A stretch of DNA of 64,000 nt from an uncultured Flavobacteriales bacterium (GTDB taxonomy: Bacteria > Bacteroidota > Bacteroidia > Flavobacteriales_E > Vicingaceae): positions 1-64,000 of the forward strand of contig CAJQON010000017.1 of the NCBI GenBank assembly GCA_905479995.1, written 5' to 3'. Each line of letters starts with the position of its first letter. Positions within the stretch are counted from its first letter, which is position 1. The translations under genes and the position numbers were made by a program. Below are positions 15,604-50,450 of the stretch, one piece after another. The notes under the pieces were generated by a model. The model searched no databases. It worked only from the letters and a program-made list of their open reading frames with translations, and was not told the DNA's origin.

Positions 15604-15715
15604 AATTGAATAATCTAAAAATCAAAGTTATAAATAAACCGTTACATTGAATTGTTTAACTTTATAATTGTTAATGCAACCTTTTTAAACAGCGGTACAT
15701 CTTAATATTGAATCA

Positions 15716-16264
15716 ATGAAAATGAATGAAGAGCAATTAGTTAAAAAGTGTCTTGCAAAAGATGCTGTTGCTCAAAAGCTTTTGTTCGATCATTATTCAA
15801 GGCGCATGATGGGTGTTTGCTTGAGGTATGCTCGAGACAATGATGAAGCTCAGGATGTGCTGCAAATGGGGTTTATCAAAGTCTTTGAGAAATTAGACAT
15901 GTTTAACTTCAAAGGTTCTTTAGAAGGTTGGATTAGAAGAATAGTTGTTAATACCGCATTAGATAACATTCGTAAAAACAAAAAGTTTATGAATGATGTT
16001 GAAATGGATAGGGTAGATTTTCAACTACAAAATTATAATGAAAACGCAGTTGATTACCTATCGGCAAAAGACTTATTGAAAATAATTCAAGGAATGCCAA
16101 AAGGTTTTAAAACTGTGTTTAACATGTTCGCTATTGAAGGCTATTCGCATAAAGAAATTGCTGAAGAGTTGAATATATCAGTTAATACGTCTAAATCTCA
16201 ATACTCAAGAGCAAGAGCTCATTTGCAAAAAATATTAATAGAAGAAAACATAATAGAACGGTGA
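15716..16264 (+). CDS. ECF-type RNA polymerase sigma factor
   Basis: 182 aa, sigma-70 family with regions 2 and 4 only. Region 2 contains HYSRRMMGVCLRYARDNDEAQDVLQMGFIKVF, split here by the DEAQD motif that binds core polymerase. Region 4 contains the helix-turn-helix YSHKEIAEELNISVNTSKSQYSRA. Its stop overlaps the start of the next gene (GTGA, 16261-16264), so the downstream membrane protein is translationally coupled and is the likely anti-sigma partner. The regulon cannot be inferred from this window. Confidence 0.93.
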   Translation: MKMNEEQLVKKCLAKDAVAQKLLFDHYSRRMMGVCLRYARDNDEAQDVLQMGFIKVFEKLDMFNFKGSLEGWIRRIVVNTALDNIRKNKKFMNDVEMDRVDFQLQNYNENAVDYLSAKDLLKIIQGMPKGFKTVFNMFAIEGYSHKEIAEELNISVNTSKSQYSRARAHLQKILIEENIIER

Positions 16265-17187
16265 AAGAAGGATTTGAAAATATAGATGAAGTTTTTAAGC
16301 AAGCTTTTGATGGTTTTGAAGGTAACGTAGATCCAAGTGTTTGGACCAATGTTCAGAATTCAATATCATCTAATGTTGGTTCGCCTCAGGCTGATCCTGT
16401 ATCTTCGGTTGCAGTGAACACCGTAGCAAAATCAATAGCATTAAAAATAGCAGCCGGAGTAATAGCTCTTGGTACAGTTGTAGGAGGAGTTTATTATGCG
16501 AATAGTTCTGATGTTGAAACAGAAGAGGTGTTGGTTCAAGAAGCAATCAATACACCAGTAATTGCTGAAGCTGTTGAATTAGAAGAATTTGTGGCAAACG
16601 TTGAATCAGCAACTGTTGAGGAGGCTAAGGAAATTGTTTCAGAAGAGACAGCAACGATAGGTGAAAGCGTTGAAAAAATAAAAGAAGAACCTGTAAGTGT
16701 TCCAAATAATGAGAATGTTGAAGAATCTTCAACTAAAGAAAGTTCTTCTACTGAAATAGCTACTACCCAAAAAGCAGAACGCACGAATGGAAAGACTTCA
16801 ACTGAAAAGGAAAAAACTCCTGTAACACAAAAAGAGAAGGTTGTTGAACCAGTTGTAACTGAATTGGAAGCTGCAGCAATTGAAAAGGAAGTACCTAAAG
16901 TTGCTGAGGTTGAATTAGATCTAATTCCAAATGTAATTTCCCCAAATGGAGATGGACAAAACGATGTAATAAAAGTTACAGGTAAAGACCTAGAACGTAT
17001 TGAAGTATTAATAATGGATAAAACAATGAAATTGGTTTACACTATTAATACCCTTGATGGAGAATGGAATGGAAGAGATCAGGCAGGAAATGACTTAGTT
17101 TCGGGATCTTATTTTATGACAGGATCAGTACTGGATGTTAACGGAAACAAAAAAACAATTAAGCAGATAATTAACTTATTTAAGTAA
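16261..17187 (+). CDS. Membrane-anchored protein with gliding/T9SS-type C-terminal domain, coupled to a sigma factor
   Basis: 308 aa from a GTG that overlaps the sigma-factor stop. Residues 1-57 are soluble (VFKQAFDGFEGNVDPSVWTN, a segment like those before the membrane helix in Bacteroidota anti-sigma-type proteins). Residues 58-80 are one transmembrane helix. Residues 81-220 are a long Glu/Val/Thr/Ser-rich disordered linker. Residues 221-308 match the gliding motility-associated C-terminal domain (NVISPNGDGQND, then GEWNGRDQAGN and GSYFMTGSV). The N-terminus is not a cleavable signal peptide, so the topology should be cytoplasmic N-terminus and periplasmic C-terminus. Anti-sigma function and sensing are inferred. 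Confidence 0.85.
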   Translation: MKEGFENIDEVFKQAFDGFEGNVDPSVWTNVQNSISSNVGSPQADPVSSVAVNTVAKSIALKIAAGVIALGTVVGGVYYANSSDVETEEVLVQEAINTPVIAEAVELEEFVANVESATVEEAKEIVSEETATIGESVEKIKEEPVSVPNNENVEESSTKESSSTEIATTQKAERTNGKTSTEKEKTPVTQKEKVVEPVVTELEAAAIEKEVPKVAEVELDLIPNVISPNGDGQNDVIKVTGKDLERIEVLIMDKTMKLVYTINTLDGEWNGRDQAGNDLVSGSYFMTGSVLDVNGNKKTIKQIINLFK

Positions 17188-17210
17188 AATAATAAGATTT
17201 ACGTTTATAA

Positions 17211-17240
17211 AAAAGCTCACCAATTTGGTGAGCTTTTTTA
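17211..17240 (+). terminator. Rho-independent terminator after the sigma-factor pair
   Basis: The stem AGCTCACC / GGTGAGCT (17214-17221, 17227-17234) has a five-base loop, followed by a T-run from 17234. Flanking A residues extend the stem. It closes the 15716-17187 transcript. Confidence 0.9.
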
Positions 17241-17330
17241 TTTGTAAGTAAATTAAACCCAAGTATATGATTTGGACTTTTTAAATAAAACGAATTAAGT
17301 ATCTTGCGAGCCTATTTAAAGGTGAAAATT

Positions 17331-23778: not shown

Positions 23779-25905
23779 TTATTGAACTATTAATTTTTGT
23801 GTTTTAATTACACCGTCAGCATTAAATTCTACAAAGTATATTCCAGAAGATAAGCTTCTGTTGTCATCAATGCTTAATGTGTATTTGCCTTGCTCAAACG
23901 CTTGGTTTAAAATAACGTTTGTTGCAACCTGACCAACAGCATTTCTAACTACAACGTTAAGGTTCTTTACGTTTTGAAGTAGGTGGAAAGCTATTTTTGC
24001 ACTAGAGTTAGTTGGGTTTGGGTAAACATTAAAACTACCAATGTTAGCAAATTCATCTATGCCAACAGTTCCGTTTATGTTAATGTCATCAATGTAAATG
24101 TCGTTACCATCACCACTTGTAAAAGCAAACTTAATTCTTGCATTAGGAGCTGCTCCTAAAAAGGTTAAGTCCAATGTTCTTTGAACCCATTCAGATGAAG
24201 TTGGAACGAAAGGAACAGTATGGTCGGGAGCGGTAGCTAACGTTGCGGCAGTAATTGGCATTTTTAACGACCAAGTAGCCCCACAAGTTGTAGAAACATA
24301 AATTAATAACCTGTCGTTGTCTGTAGCACTTCGTTTTGCATAAGCCTGTTTAAAGGTAATTGACTTTGATGCAAAAGATGAAAGGTCATAAGAAGGAGAA
24401 ATTAACTCGTGAATTTCACCAGCATCATTAAAGTAGTTTCTAATTCTTACCGATCTACTTCCAGTAGTTGAAGCAATGTTATTGTTTGCCCATGTTTGAA
24501 CTCCGTTATTCACATTTTCTACTCTCCAATCTAAGGCATATTGAGAGGTGTTTTCAAAACCATCAACTATAGGTCCAACATAATCGGCAGTTAAAGAACT
24601 TACAGTAATAATATTAGTCTTGGTAGCATTTCCTGCACCTGCAGTAGTTGAAGGTTGGCTTGTAACGGTAAATGTTCCAGGGTTATTGTATGTAATTGTA
24701 GGGCTGCTAGCAGCTGAAGATGCTGGAGAACCTCCAGTAAATGTCCAGTTCCATGCCGTTGGAGTAGCGTTGTATGATTGATCTGTAAACGTTACGCTAT
24801 CACCTTCGCAAATAAAGTCTTTGTTGTAAGAAAAGTCTGCAATTGGAGAACAGATAACGGGCCCGTATGGATCTTCAGTTCCTGTAAAATTAAGATTTCC
24901 AGTTGGGCCAGTTGTAGTTAATTGGTATAGCCCTTGAGAAATGCTTGTTGAACTAAGGTAGGCATGCATTCTTATTTTTTGGTCATCAGAAAACATGTTT
25001 TGACAAGCATCATAACTCATGTAGTTTTCTATTTGATCCACCACGTTAGTCCCAAATGGGTCTGGACCATTAGCATCGTTTGTACATGTGTTTTGGTTGA
25101 GGTCACATCCTTGTGTAGAAGTTGATGCAGGTGGAGTATCGCAACATCTGTCTCCAGAATTAGAGCAATTGTTTCCACAACTACTTTGAAAAGTATGGTA
25201 TAATCCAAAGCAATGACCAACTTCGTGGGTTAGAGTTCGTTGATTTCTACCAATATAGCTGGATCTCATTACCACACCATAAGTACTGTTAATACCACTG
25301 GTTGGAAATTGAGCATACCCCAAAGTAATAGAAGGTGGATTGTCGCTAGCCATGGTAATGCATGTCCAAATATTAAAGTATTTTTTGCTGTCCCAATAAC
25401 TTAGTGCCTTTATGTCATCATCAGCATCTAATGCCAATGGAGATTCTAGTCGTACAATTCCTTCAGTACAATTTCCATTGGGATCTTTGTGAGCTAAACG
25501 GAATTGAACTTGTACGTCAACAGCGTAAGGAGCAAATAAGGCTCTTGTGCTTGAAGCGTCTGAATTTAGCCGTTGAAAATCTTCATTTAAACGCAACATT
25601 TGATCGTCAATGTCCGCTTTGTTTACATTTCCTGCGCCATTATAGGTAACAACGTGCCAAACAACAGGAATGGTATATATAATAGCTTTTTTATTGCCCA
25701 TACTCGCAATAATATCTTTACGATGGTCTTCAATATATTGATCCATTATGGCATTCTGCTGAATTAATGCAGGGTTTTTTGCGTATTGATCTTGTGTATG
25801 TTGGTCTGTTCCGCACCAATTTGTAGTAGTAGCGTTTTGAGCATTTAAGCTAAAAGCTGCAAAAATTATAGCGCAGCTTAAAAGTGATTGTTTTATTAGT
25901 TTCAT
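23779..25905 (-). CDS. Secreted M43 (pappalysin-type) zinc metalloprotease with PKD and T9SS sorting domains
   Basis: 708 aa. Residues 1-22 are a signal peptide. The zinc-binding motif HEVGHCFGLYH spans residues 227-237 (ligands H227, H231, H237; catalytic E228), and the Met-turn MSY is at about 296-298. This is the M43 cytophagalysin/pappalysin pattern. A Cys-rich loop (SSCGNNCSNSGDRCCDTPP) follows the motif. About 357-440 is a PKD domain, then a jelly-roll region, and about 630-708 is a type A T9SS sorting domain (SFNVYPNPTNSSAKI, ending KTQKLIVQ). It is secreted across the outer membrane. A paralogue lies directly upstream on the same strand. Confidence 0.94.
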   Translation of the reverse strand: MKLIKQSLLSCAIIFAAFSLNAQNATTTNWCGTDQHTQDQYAKNPALIQQNAIMDQYIEDHRKDIIASMGNKKAIIYTIPVVWHVVTYNGAGNVNKADIDDQMLRLNEDFQRLNSDASSTRALFAPYAVDVQVQFRLAHKDPNGNCTEGIVRLESPLALDADDDIKALSYWDSKKYFNIWTCITMASDNPPSITLGYAQFPTSGINSTYGVVMRSSYIGRNQRTLTHEVGHCFGLYHTFQSSCGNNCSNSGDRCCDTPPASTSTQGCDLNQNTCTNDANGPDPFGTNVVDQIENYMSYDACQNMFSDDQKIRMHAYLSSTSISQGLYQLTTTGPTGNLNFTGTEDPYGPVICSPIADFSYNKDFICEGDSVTFTDQSYNATPTAWNWTFTGGSPASSAASSPTITYNNPGTFTVTSQPSTTAGAGNATKTNIITVSSLTADYVGPIVDGFENTSQYALDWRVENVNNGVQTWANNNIASTTGSRSVRIRNYFNDAGEIHELISPSYDLSSFASKSITFKQAYAKRSATDNDRLLIYVSTTCGATWSLKMPITAATLATAPDHTVPFVPTSSEWVQRTLDLTFLGAAPNARIKFAFTSGDGNDIYIDDININGTVGIDEFANIGSFNVYPNPTNSSAKIAFHLLQNVKNLNVVVRNAVGQVATNVILNQAFEQGKYTLSIDDNRSLSSGIYFVEFNADGVIKTQKLIVQ

Positions 25906-26065: not shown

Positions 26066-28189
26066 CTACTGAACAATTAATTTATGTGTTTTAATATGGT
26101 TGTCAGCGTTAAATTCAATAAAATAAATTCCAGGTGAAAGCGATTGATTTTCATCTATAGCTAAGGTATATTTTCCAGGTGTAAATGCTTTTCCGCCAAT
26201 TACATTAGTTACTACTTGTCCTAGCGAGTTTTTTAAATGAATGCTTAAGTTAGAAACCTGATCTAATACGCTAAAGGTTATTTTTGCACTTGAGTTTGTA
26301 GGGTTTGGGAAAACATTAAAACTTCCAATGTTTGCATGTTCTTCAACACCAACACCAATACCAATGTTTAAATTGTCTAAGTAAATATCGTTACCACCAT
26401 CTGATTCAAATTCAAATTTTAATCGAAGGTTGGTAGATAAACCAAGCGAAGTGAAGTCTAAAGAATGTTCAACCCATTCTGATGAAGTTGGAACAAATAA
26501 GCTCGGATGAACCGGTGCAGTAACCAAATTTAATGCAGCAAATAATGACTTTTTTAATACCCATGATGCTCCGCATGTTGTAGAATAGTATATTAATAGT
26601 TTATCGCTGTTAGATGAATTTCGTTGAGCGAAAGCTACCTTAATTCTAATTACTTTGTTGGATGAAGTTGATAGGTTGTATGATGGACTTATAAGGAAGT
26701 CTACATCAGTAGAGCTAGCTCCAGCAGTAAAATTTCGTAATCGAACTGATCGAGATCCAGAAGCCATTGCAGCAGTTGAACTTTCCCAGTCATAATTGTC
26801 AGTTCCACTACCAATAATCCAATCATTAGAAAATTGTGAAGAATTATCAAATCCATCAAGAATTGGGGCACTGTAATCTGCAGTTAAAGAACTTACGGTT
26901 ATAATAGCACTCTTATATAAAAAATCAGCACCAACAGAATTTGATGGGCGATGAGTTACGCCATAAATTCCTGCTGTATTGTAAGTAATAATTGGTGTCC
27001 CAGATGCAGAACTAGCAGGAGAACCTCCAGTAAATGTCCAGTTATAACCAGTTGGAGCTCCATTGTAAGAATCATCTGCAAAGAATACTGTAGCACCTTC
27101 ACAAATAAACTCTTTGTCATAAGTAAAGTCAGCAATTGGAGCGCAGTTTGGTATTGTGTAAGGATTGTTTACACCTGTAGCATTAAGGTTTGTAGTAGTG
27201 CTTAGTTGGGCTAATCCTATTAAGTTGTTTGTGTTGTTTAGCGTGCTTTCCATAGCGATCTTTTGCTCTAAGGTAAACATGTTTTGACAGTTATCGTAGC
27301 TCATGTAGTTTTCAATTTGGTCTACTACATTTGTTCCATAAGGGTCTGGTCCAGTTGCATCATTAACGCAAGTGTTTTGAGTTGTATTGCAGGTGTAAGT
27401 GTCTGTAGAAGCAGGAGGAGTATCACAGATTCTGTCACCAGAATTAGAACAATGATTTCCACAGCTACTTTGAAATGTATGTAAAAGACCAAAACAATGG
27501 CCAACTTCGTGGGTTAATGTTCTGTCGGTTGCATTAAAATAAGTGTCATCAACCACTACACCAAAAGTAGCATCAATTCCTGAATAAGGAAATTGAGCAT
27601 ATCCAAGTGTTAGACCTGATGATGAACCATCAATATGATCTACAACCCAAATGTTAAAATACTTTTTACTGTCCCAAAAACTTAAAGCTTTACCAGGGTC
27701 ATGGAAATTTGCACTCGAAGCATCTTCCATTCTTACAATTCCTTCAGTACAATCTCCGTTTGGATCTAAGTGTGCTAATCGAAACTCTATGTCCATACTC
27801 ATGGCAACAGATTTGAATAATGCTCGAGTATTAACGGTGTCTGCGTTTAAGCGTTGAAAATCTATATTTAACCGATTAATAGCAGCTTCAATTGTTGCTT
27901 TTGTTACATAGCCTACTCCTCCATCATGAGTAATGTTGTGTACTACAACAGGTATAATATAAGGAGATGCTTTTTTTGAACTGGATAGGTTTGTTTTGTT
28001 GTCAATGTTACTTCTTATTTGCTGCATCATTGCTTCTCTTTCTTGAAGCAATCCAGGGTTTTGTTTTACTTGTTCTTGAAAATTTTCTTCAGTATGACAC
28101 CAGTTTCCGATTCTCGTTGTTTGTGCTTGAGTATTTAGGAATATTAACGTTAAAGCAATTACCGTGAGGGTAGTCTTAAATAATTTCAT
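26066..28189 (-). CDS. Second secreted M43-type zinc metalloprotease with PKD and T9SS sorting domains
   Basis: 707 aa, a close paralogue of the 23779-25905 protease, with the same domain order. A signal peptide is at 1-22. The zinc motif HEVGHCFGLLH is at residues 227-237, the same positions as in the paralogue, with MSY following. A Cys-rich loop, a PKD domain and a C-terminal sorting domain (SFNVFPNPTNSSAKI, ending KTHKLIVQ) follow. The pair probably arose by tandem duplication. The differences (for example Y to L within the zinc motif and divergent jelly-roll sequence) suggest different substrates. Confidence 0.94.
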   Translation of the reverse strand: MKLFKTTLTVIALTLIFLNTQAQTTRIGNWCHTEENFQEQVKQNPGLLQEREAMMQQIRSNIDNKTNLSSSKKASPYIIPVVVHNITHDGGVGYVTKATIEAAINRLNIDFQRLNADTVNTRALFKSVAMSMDIEFRLAHLDPNGDCTEGIVRMEDASSANFHDPGKALSFWDSKKYFNIWVVDHIDGSSSGLTLGYAQFPYSGIDATFGVVVDDTYFNATDRTLTHEVGHCFGLLHTFQSSCGNHCSNSGDRICDTPPASTDTYTCNTTQNTCVNDATGPDPYGTNVVDQIENYMSYDNCQNMFTLEQKIAMESTLNNTNNLIGLAQLSTTTNLNATGVNNPYTIPNCAPIADFTYDKEFICEGATVFFADDSYNGAPTGYNWTFTGGSPASSASGTPIITYNTAGIYGVTHRPSNSVGADFLYKSAIITVSSLTADYSAPILDGFDNSSQFSNDWIIGSGTDNYDWESSTAAMASGSRSVRLRNFTAGASSTDVDFLISPSYNLSTSSNKVIRIKVAFAQRNSSNSDKLLIYYSTTCGASWVLKKSLFAALNLVTAPVHPSLFVPTSSEWVEHSLDFTSLGLSTNLRLKFEFESDGGNDIYLDNLNIGIGVGVEEHANIGSFNVFPNPTNSSAKITFSVLDQVSNLSIHLKNSLGQVVTNVIGGKAFTPGKYTLAIDENQSLSPGIYFIEFNADNHIKTHKLIVQ

Positions 28190-48920: not shown

Positions 48921-50450
48921 GTGAAAAAACTACTTTGTATCATATCATTTTTTTTTGCCGTATTTAATGCTCAATCTAATTGTGTAAGCGGAACTGTTGC
49001 TGCACCTGTGGTTGATAGTATTACCGTTGATATTGCTGGTAATGTAACCATTTGTTGGCAAGCTGTTCCCGATCCTGATGTAGTTTCTTACACCATTTTT
49101 ATGATTAACCCAATTACTAGTGCCAACGATAGTATAAATATTGTTGCTGCTCCAGGGAACTGTTTTACGCTGCCTTTTGGCTTAAATACATCTGATTTAG
49201 AAACGGTTGAATTGGGTGTTGTCGCTAAAGATGTCTGTAATAACTCTAGTCCAGTTGGTGTAAACTACCACAACACTATCCATTTGGAAAACACCCTTGA
49301 TATTTGTGCTGCAAGTATCTCTTTAACTTGGAATGCTTACGATGATTTTCCTACAGGAACAAATTTGGACTACAAGGTTTTTGTTAGTGTTAATGCTGGG
49401 CCATATAGTATTACTGGAAATACAACGGCATTAAACTATACTTATGCAGGAATTGTTCAGGGTTCTACTTACGATTTTTATGTAGTAGGTGTTGAAAATA
49501 ATGGTGTTGGACCCGCAAGTTCTTCTTCTAACGATATTCAAATAAATACGGTTAACTTTTTAAAAGACCCGGCTTATAATTATTTGTATACAGCAACGGT
49601 AGTAGATTCTCAGTTAGTTGACGTCCAGTTTTATGTTGATACCTCTGCAGATATTAGCCATTATAATATTCAAAGATCTGAGAGCATAACTGGACCTTTT
49701 GTTACGATAGGTTCCGTGTCTGCTAGTATTGGCATGAATCCTTTAGTGACATATTATGATTATGACGTAAACGCGATAGATCGTTACTACGTTTATCAAG
49801 TAGAAACGATTAACAGTTGTGGTGATTTAAAGTTAACCTCTAACATAGGAAAAACAATATGGCTTTATGTAGAATCTGATGGAGTTGGAGAGAAAAATAT
49901 CTTAACATTTACGAGTTACGAAAATTGGTTGGGTGGAGTTAATACTTACGAAATTCATCGATCTGTTGGTGGGATTTGGGAAAGCTCTCCCGTTGCAACC
50001 GTTTCAGCATTTGGCGATACTGCTGTTTATGAAGACAATATAATGCAAGTTGTTGAAGGGAATGGAGAGTTTTGTTATAAAGTAATTGCTCAAGAGGGTG
50101 TTATTGCTCATGTTGGTGGTATTCCCGCAGCATCAAGTACGTCAAATGAAAGTTGTGCATTGCATGAGCCGCTTTTGTATGTTCCAAATGCATTTTCACC
50201 ATTAAGCCCTTACAATTATGAGTTTAAACCAGTATTAACCTTTTCGGAGCCAGCAGGCTACTTAATGCAAATTTATAACCGTTGGGGACAAATTGTATTT
50301 GAAACTAAAGAGTTAGATGTAGGTTGGAATGGTCGACCAAACAATGTCGGCTTGATGAGTCCCATAGGTTCTTATGTATACTTAATTAAATTTCAGGGTG
50401 CCAATGGAGATGATTTCTCGAAAAGAGGACTGATTAATTTATTAAACTAA
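48921..50450 (+). CDS. Exported protein with fibronectin-type domains and gliding-associated C-terminus
   Basis: 509 aa starting at GTG. Residues 1-19 are a signal peptide (LLCIISFFFAVFNAQS). Four or so Fn3-like beta-sandwich segments follow (VSYTIFMINP, LDYKVFVSVN, ISHYNIQRSE, VNTYEIHRSV). The C-terminal 90 residues are a gliding motility-associated domain (VPNAFSPLSPYNYEFKP, IYNRWGQIVFE, and GWNGRPNN), which acts as a T9SS type B sorting signal. Its stop overlaps the convergent fdhD stop by 4 nt. A substrate for binding is not apparent. Confidence 0.88.
   Translation: MKKLLCIISFFFAVFNAQSNCVSGTVAAPVVDSITVDIAGNVTICWQAVPDPDVVSYTIFMINPITSANDSINIVAAPGNCFTLPFGLNTSDLETVELGVVAKDVCNNSSPVGVNYHNTIHLENTLDICAASISLTWNAYDDFPTGTNLDYKVFVSVNAGPYSITGNTTALNYTYAGIVQGSTYDFYVVGVENNGVGPASSSSNDIQINTVNFLKDPAYNYLYTATVVDSQLVDVQFYVDTSADISHYNIQRSESITGPFVTIGSVSASIGMNPLVTYYDYDVNAIDRYYVYQVETINSCGDLKLTSNIGKTIWLYVESDGVGEKNILTFTSYENWLGGVNTYEIHRSVGGIWESSPVATVSAFGDTAVYEDNIMQVVEGNGEFCYKVIAQEGVIAHVGGIPAASSTSNESCALHEPLLYVPNAFSPLSPYNYEFKPVLTFSEPAGYLMQIYNRWGQIVFETKELDVGWNGRPNNVGLMSPIGSYVYLIKFQGANGDDFSKRGLINLLN

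Follow-up and report, generated by a model that had tools for sequence, protein, structure and literature searches.

Regulation by an ECF sigma factor and a membrane-anchored anti-sigma factor that reports outer-membrane events is well known from the FecR-FecA system. In Bacteroides thetaiotaomicron, the ECF21 sigma factors Das1 and Das2 are the partners of Dma1 and Dma2, and the Dma plan consists of an anti-sigma domain, a transmembrane helix, a tether and a beta-barrel, so that the protein spans both membranes (PMC13088901). A link between the T9SS and an ECF sigma factor has been described in Porphyromonas gingivalis, where the CTD-bearing protein PorA acts through PorXY on SigP, which controls T9SS genes (PMC7712824). 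T9SS cargo of type B is recognised by a C-terminal signal that, in F. johnsoniae, contains five conserved motifs, two in loops and three on strands, each of them required for the secretion of SprB (PMC12618676). Such cargo also needs PorP/SprF-type shuttles, which are scarce and seemingly used stoichiometrically (PMC12618676) and which keep the cargo at the cell surface (PMC9143113). Our search of the literature found no anti-sigma factor that ends in a domain of the T9SS or gliding type, a result that does not by itself prove that none has been described. Here we analyze a locus in which the two themes appear to be combined in a single protein.

Architecture and conservation of the sigma/anti-sigma pair

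The pair was found in a stretch of 64,000 nucleotides, the whole of which is called the window below. Its features, all on the + strand, are as follows:

15675-15704, +: putative ECF-type promoter of the sigma gene, TGCAACCTTT-N13-CATCTTA, conserved across upstream regions, with the start codon 11 nt downstream
15716-16264, +: ECF sigma factor of 182 aa, an ORF with Pfam matches to Sigma70_r2 (3e-15) and Sigma70_r4_2 (6e-15)
16261-17187, +: predicted anti-sigma factor of 308 aa with a GTG start, membrane-anchored and with a C-terminal CHU_C domain
16261-16428, +: residues 1-56, cytoplasmic helical domain proposed to bind the sigma factor (AlphaFold helices, conservation, phylum-wide occurrence beside sigma genes)
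16429-16500, +: residues 57-80, transmembrane helix (hydropathy 2.05; predicted helix 57-80)
16501-16905, +: residues 81-215, disordered acidic linker of about 135 residues (pLDDT <50; 13 K/R vs 34 D/E)
16906-17184, +: residues 216-308, Ig-like domain that stems from a type B CTD of the T9SS and is predicted to lie in the periplasm (Pfam CHU_C, fold matches, motif census)
17210-17238, +: intrinsic-terminator-like hairpin, AAAAAGCTCACC-AATTT-GGTGAGCTTTTT, read directly from the letters and unlisted by the terminator scanner

The GTG start of the anti-sigma gene shares letters with the TGA stop of the sigma ORF in a GTGA overlap. The hairpin is accompanied by a T-run and is predicted to end a two-gene operon, flanked in the window ORF list by an RsmI-like gene and by a gene at 17304. 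Among the window ORFs no PorP/SprF-like gene adjoins the pair, and no TonB-dependent receptor gene adjoins it either. Pfam detected no FecR domain in the anti-sigma protein, and its N-terminal domain matched none of the anti-sigma families in Pfam and NCBIfam. In nearly all of the same-genus genomes (L001-L016) the anti-sigma start codon is GTG or TTG and abuts or overlaps the sigma stop, which suggests that translation is weak and coupled to that of the sigma gene.

The AlphaFold model of the anti-sigma protein contains helices at residues 8-21, 25-36 and 57-80, has pLDDT values essentially below 50 for residues 39-206, and exceeds 90 in the C-terminal domain from about residue 222. The best 19-residue hydropathy value (2.05) is at residue 59, and there is no second hydrophobic segment. 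A cleavable N-terminal Sec signal peptide is absent, the sole hydrophobic segment beginning at about residues 57-59, after the soluble helical domain. Acidic residues are more numerous after the transmembrane helix than before it.

We then determined how widely this arrangement is conserved. The window's Bacteroidota order is represented in our collection by 46 genomes of one family, several of the relatives being draft assemblies. The N-terminal domain is present in 45 of these, and a CHU_C-bearing anti-sigma protein was verified in 44, including one that is split by an apparent frameshift; the exceptions are G022, in which the anti-sigma gene is cut by a contig end, and G449, which yielded a barrel-length relative alone. 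The split protein, in the genus genome G013 (L007/L267), is encoded in two ORFs, an N-terminal part and a CHU_C part, through an apparent frameshift that is either real or an assembly error. A sigma gene is visible beside the anti-sigma gene at 43 of the 44 CHU_C-bearing order loci, and all 19 aligned homologues have kept the architecture, 9 of them with a PKD domain inserted ahead of CHU_C. The combination of sigma factor and CHU_C anti-sigma protein is thus maintained well beyond chance. Within the genus, residues 1-40 are 65-82% identical and the C-terminal domain 27-65%, and the linker shares 9-26% identity with its orthologues. In the four closest orthologues the C-terminal domain is 54-65% identical compared with 11-26% for the linker, indicating that the proposed sensor is under constraint.

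Beyond these 46 genomes, identical gene order occurs at named loci in one Bacteroidales and one Crocinitomicaceae genome, and also in G039 and G081, which belong to other families of the class. A contig scan with the full alignment, for which the CHU_C loop alone served as the pattern, returned mostly cargo proteins, and three of its loci were real sigma/anti-sigma pairs. Co-occurrence with the T9SS was discarded as a test of dependence because it has no power, SprA being present in 41/41 relatives.

A first-pass annotation made from the letters of this DNA had described the GTGA overlap with the sigma stop, a possible pairing of the two genes as sigma and anti-sigma factor, a membrane anchor without a cleavable signal, and an acidic disordered linker of about 140 residues. 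All four descriptions agree with the present data, with the linker now put at about 135 residues. The domain order was also found beside sigma genes elsewhere in Bacteroidota, where that annotation had proposed to look, namely at the Bacteroidales and Crocinitomicaceae loci and in G039 and G081.

Promoter of the sigma gene and candidate target genes

In 14 genomes, 13 of which belong to the window's own genus and one to a different genus, the region upstream of the sigma gene has invariant ATGCAACCTTT and CATCT elements at fixed spacing, and TGCAACCTTT-N13-CATCT ends about 11 nt ahead of the start codon. The wider pattern TGCAAC-N17-CATC, with GTC in one case, is present at 40/40 order loci for which upstream sequence was included. 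Self-conserved upstream elements of this kind are the usual mark of ECF autoregulation.

We searched the 14 genus genomes for this motif with at most one mismatch and used the reversed pattern as the control, resulting in 43 matches, compared with 3 for the control. Thirteen of the matches are the sigma gene's own promoter and 30 are non-self. A filter that was picked after the hits had been inspected, which required that CATCT be intact and that an ATG lie no more than 100 nt away, retained 13 complete non-self target genes. Ten of these encode proteins with type B ends and two with type A ends (L218 and L229; TIGR04183), while the remaining one encodes a small secreted protein with neither signal. 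Three further filtered targets run off their contigs, and two of them are of the same cargo family. For comparison, about 1.6% of the genes in the genome are of type B (43 hits among an assumed total of some 2,700 genes, estimated from genome size), and type A and type B genes together account for about 6%. Even without the filter, finding 10 of the 30 non-self matches ahead of type B genes is far above expectation. The genus genomes are related and the counts of promoter targets are not independent; with orthologues collapsed, 4/7 targets are of type B (binomial P about 2e-6).

Both intergenic non-self matches in the window's own genome precede one cargo family, one target being complete with a CHU_C domain (C4:879) and the other cut by a contig end (C28:66211). 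In G039, which belongs to another family, two non-self matches stand ahead of type B cargo genes (1,396 and 1,148 residues), and two more stand ahead of operons in which the second gene looks secreted and runs off the contig. None of the matches could be recognised as belonging to a T9SS machinery gene, and this included those in the own genome with up to 2 mismatches; the 2-mismatch matches there were discarded as noise (15 vs 10 for the control). The single best candidate for a reporter gene comes from a cargo family whose proteins start with MKK...SHVVGGD..WVSQNNY (L214:246-2219, L215). Its gene lies upstream of pyrG in the window's genome, and in many genus genomes the family is preceded by the sigma-type promoter.

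Beta-barrel-type sigma/anti-sigma pairs of the same genus have related promoters, and the promoter could also be used by further sigma factors of the ECF type. A variant with CGTCT for CATCT, GCAACCTTTTT-N-CCGTCTTA or nearly so, was seen in five genus genomes (L217, L219, L221, L232 and L237) at about base 200 of the motif-oriented region. Its position is immediately 3' of a glcD-like gene, toward which it is directed, and it falls outside the cargo set. A related ECF sigma factor possibly uses the variant as a promoter for an antisense transcript or a small RNA.

The C-terminal domain and its proposed role

The C-terminal domain belongs to the Pfam family CHU_C (PF13585; residues 222-302, E 4e-13, 49.7 bits vs a cut-off of 27). 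Its match to TIGR04131 is borderline at the cut-off of 35, with 33.4 bits for the protein and 36.3 bits in the genome scan, where the anti-sigma protein ranks 39 among 43 hits. Fold comparison returned the CTDs of PorU (Z 8.6) and PorZ (Z 7.5) and 8glk_D, a chain of a T9SS substrate-bound entry (Z 7.8). Unrelated Ig-like domains score Z values similar to or higher than these, and hence the assignment rests on the sequence family and not on the fold. A sequence search of solved structures gave no significant match. In a tree of C-terminal domains the anti-sigma domains group apart from cargo with weak support; the tree, too short to resolve branching firmly, was used for the clustering of labels alone.

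A motif census separated conserved from missing parts of the signal. In 40 anti-sigma domains the PNxDxxND loop is present in 39 and W-x-G and G-x-Y in all 40. The RWG-type motif, scored with a loose aromatic-G pattern, occurs in 89 of 103 cargo domains vs 4 of 40 anti-sigma domains, and one of these four (DRFG) is correctly placed. The terminal glycine motif is present in 81/103 cargo domains vs 10/40 anti-sigma domains. Fisher P values are 6e-18 for RWG and 4e-9 for the terminal glycine motif, ignoring kinship among the sequences. The anti-sigma protein of the window has neither motif. We infer from their shared order that the census motifs correspond to the five published ones, of which the published text prints no letters; three of the five conserved type B regions are kept in the anti-sigma domain. 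With two cargo motifs missing, the domain is more likely a sensor derived from a type B signal than an export signal, and as such it probably stays in the periplasm.

The first-pass annotation had recognised the T9SS type B-type C-terminal domain, as is now supported by the PF13585 score and the borderline TIGR04131 match. Its link to the T9SS has been strengthened by promoters like the sigma gene's own ahead of T9SS cargo genes (10/13 type B and 2/13 type A). Its suggestion that the protein displays a cargo-like signal is not supported if an intact signal was meant, since the RWG and terminal glycine motifs of genuine type B cargo are missing.

Other T9SS-related genes are present in the window. 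The ORF at 48921-50450 (+) encodes a second CHU_C protein, which is 509 aa long, has an N-terminus resembling a signal peptide and keeps NRWG intact; by its sequence it is an ordinary type B cargo and contrasts with the anti-sigma domain. Two ORFs of 711 aa and 726 aa on the minus strand end in T9SS type A signal domains, at 23782-24027 and 26069-26314.

We consider it somewhat more probable than the other explanations combined that the pair is an autoregulated ECF sigma factor with a Dma-like anti-sigma factor, acting as a feedback regulator of T9SS cargo. Residues 1-56 would keep the sigma factor at the inner membrane. From there, helix 57-80 would cross the membrane and the disordered linker of about 135 residues would extend into the periplasm, carrying at its end the sensor, an Ig-like domain that stems from a type B sorting domain of the T9SS. 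The probable binding partner of this sensor would be a T9SS component, in the periplasm or the outer membrane, whose normal role is to handle type B cargo; a shuttle of the PorP/SprF type or the translocon loaded with cargo is the most plausible candidate. Because type B cargo depends on shuttles that are scarce, stoichiometric and cargo-holding, a tethered type B-like domain could read the availability of shuttles or of the loaded translocon. A change in the occupancy of the partner would open the anti-sigma factor to regulated proteolysis or to conformational release, and the released sigma factor would transcribe its own operon and T9SS cargo genes. The activating state could be the free or the occupied shuttle, and the sequence favours neither. 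Sensing of this kind, together with the promoters of cargo genes, would match cargo synthesis to export capacity.

Alternatively, the domain might be an ordinary periplasmic Ig-like or PKD-like sensor of a signal unrelated to the T9SS, such as calcium, peptidoglycan or envelope stress, that was recruited from the abundant CHU_C pool and has lost its link to secretion. With the RWG motif rare (a single true R-aromatic-G, correctly placed) and the terminal glycine motif kept in a minority of the domains, the anti-sigma domain may no longer contact the T9SS. The kept PNxDxxND loop would resemble calcium-binding loops, PKD domains precede CHU_C in about half of the aligned homologues, and many Ig-like domains from outside the T9SS are among the fold matches. 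We nevertheless regard this explanation as unlikely, because the sigma-type promoters of two families stand mostly ahead of genes for T9SS cargo, a link between the switch and the output of the T9SS.

It is also conceivable that the domain works as a sorting signal, so that the anti-sigma protein, its anchor still in the inner membrane, is threaded as far as the translocon of the outer membrane and, spanning the envelope, reports pulling or blockage by force. The three kept type B regions and the precedent of Dma, which spans both membranes (PMC13088901), are consistent with this, and the linker would be long enough to cross the periplasm. Positions that apparently match two of the type B motifs are missing, and all five are needed for SprB secretion in F. 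johnsoniae (PMC12618676), although the mapping of letters to motifs is our own; nor is a PorP/SprF-like gene found next to the pair. A working signal is improbable.

Relation to Dma and other known systems

A profile of the N-terminal domain and transmembrane helix matched proteins in 79 of 395 genomes across the phylum. An ECF sigma gene always adjoins at the best 30 loci of that profile, and their C-termini differ from that of the window protein except in the window's genome and L145, being mostly barrel-like ends or short tails. Pfam detected OMP_b-brl in 2 of the 5 barrel-length proteins scanned, and the other barrel-type calls were made from length and strand-like ends. L306, L307 and L311, from genomes of the same genus and family, represent a second sigma/anti-sigma pair of barrel-like length, L306 and L307 coming from the window's own genus; some of these have two successive matches to the N-terminal domain, and Pfam finds no domain in any of the three.

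Lacking a Pfam or NCBIfam anti-sigma match, the second gene could encode an envelope protein that merely shares the sigma operon, but this is very improbable given the translational overlap and the occurrence of the N-terminal domain beside ECF sigma genes phylum-wide with quite different C-termini, which is the pattern of the Dma anti-sigma factors.

Returning to our preferred reading of a feedback regulator, every Dma feature that could be tested was found in the window protein except the barrel. Like Dma, it has an adjacent ECF sigma gene (overlapping here, and adjoining at nearly all order loci), an N-terminal domain that is here proposed to bind sigma, one transmembrane helix, a long disordered tether and a folded C-terminal domain, and its N-terminal domain has detectably similar counterparts in barrel-type proteins of the phylum and of its own genus. 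Unlike Dma, it ends in a T9SS type B-derived CHU_C Ig-like domain instead of a beta-barrel, and its candidate regulon is T9SS cargo. It may be seen as a Dma-like anti-sigma factor with a swapped sensor, likened to Dma1 and Dma2 by the published plan and not by sequence, which would work like a Dma protein without being classed as Dma. This suggests a modular design in which envelope sensors are exchangeable and of which the Dma anti-sigma factors represent one version.

More tentatively, and with the balance of probability against it, these proteins might form a family of client-mimic anti-sigma factors in Bacteroidota, in which an inner-membrane chassis carries a tethered domain resembling a client of an outer-membrane export machine. 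The sigma factor would then report whether the machine or its shuttle is busy, and the T9SS version would control cargo supply. If this is true, the client mimics would be a beta-barrel for outer-membrane assembly and a type B signal for the T9SS. The CHU_C anti-sigma family is near-universal in one order and present in others.

Compared with T9SS type B cargo signals (CHU_C PF13585, TIGR04131), the anti-sigma domain has the same Pfam family, fold, PNxDxxND loop, W-x-G and G-x-Y; it differs in that the protein has no signal peptide, is anchored in the inner membrane, and is without RWG and usually without the C-terminal glycine motif. As in FecR-FecA, an ECF sigma factor is paired with a membrane-anchored anti-sigma factor, here without a FecR domain or an adjoining TonB-dependent receptor. 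How T9SS bacteria adjust cargo supply to export capacity is known only in outline, from PorXY-SigP of one species. Both in PorA-PorXY-SigP and here, a CTD-bearing protein feeds an ECF sigma factor, but PorA is a surface protein that acts via a two-component system and SigP targets T9SS machinery, whereas here the CTD lies within the anti-sigma factor itself and the candidate targets are cargo. The anti-sigma family would provide a one-protein route from a periplasmic T9SS-like domain to an ECF sigma factor, with concrete candidate targets.
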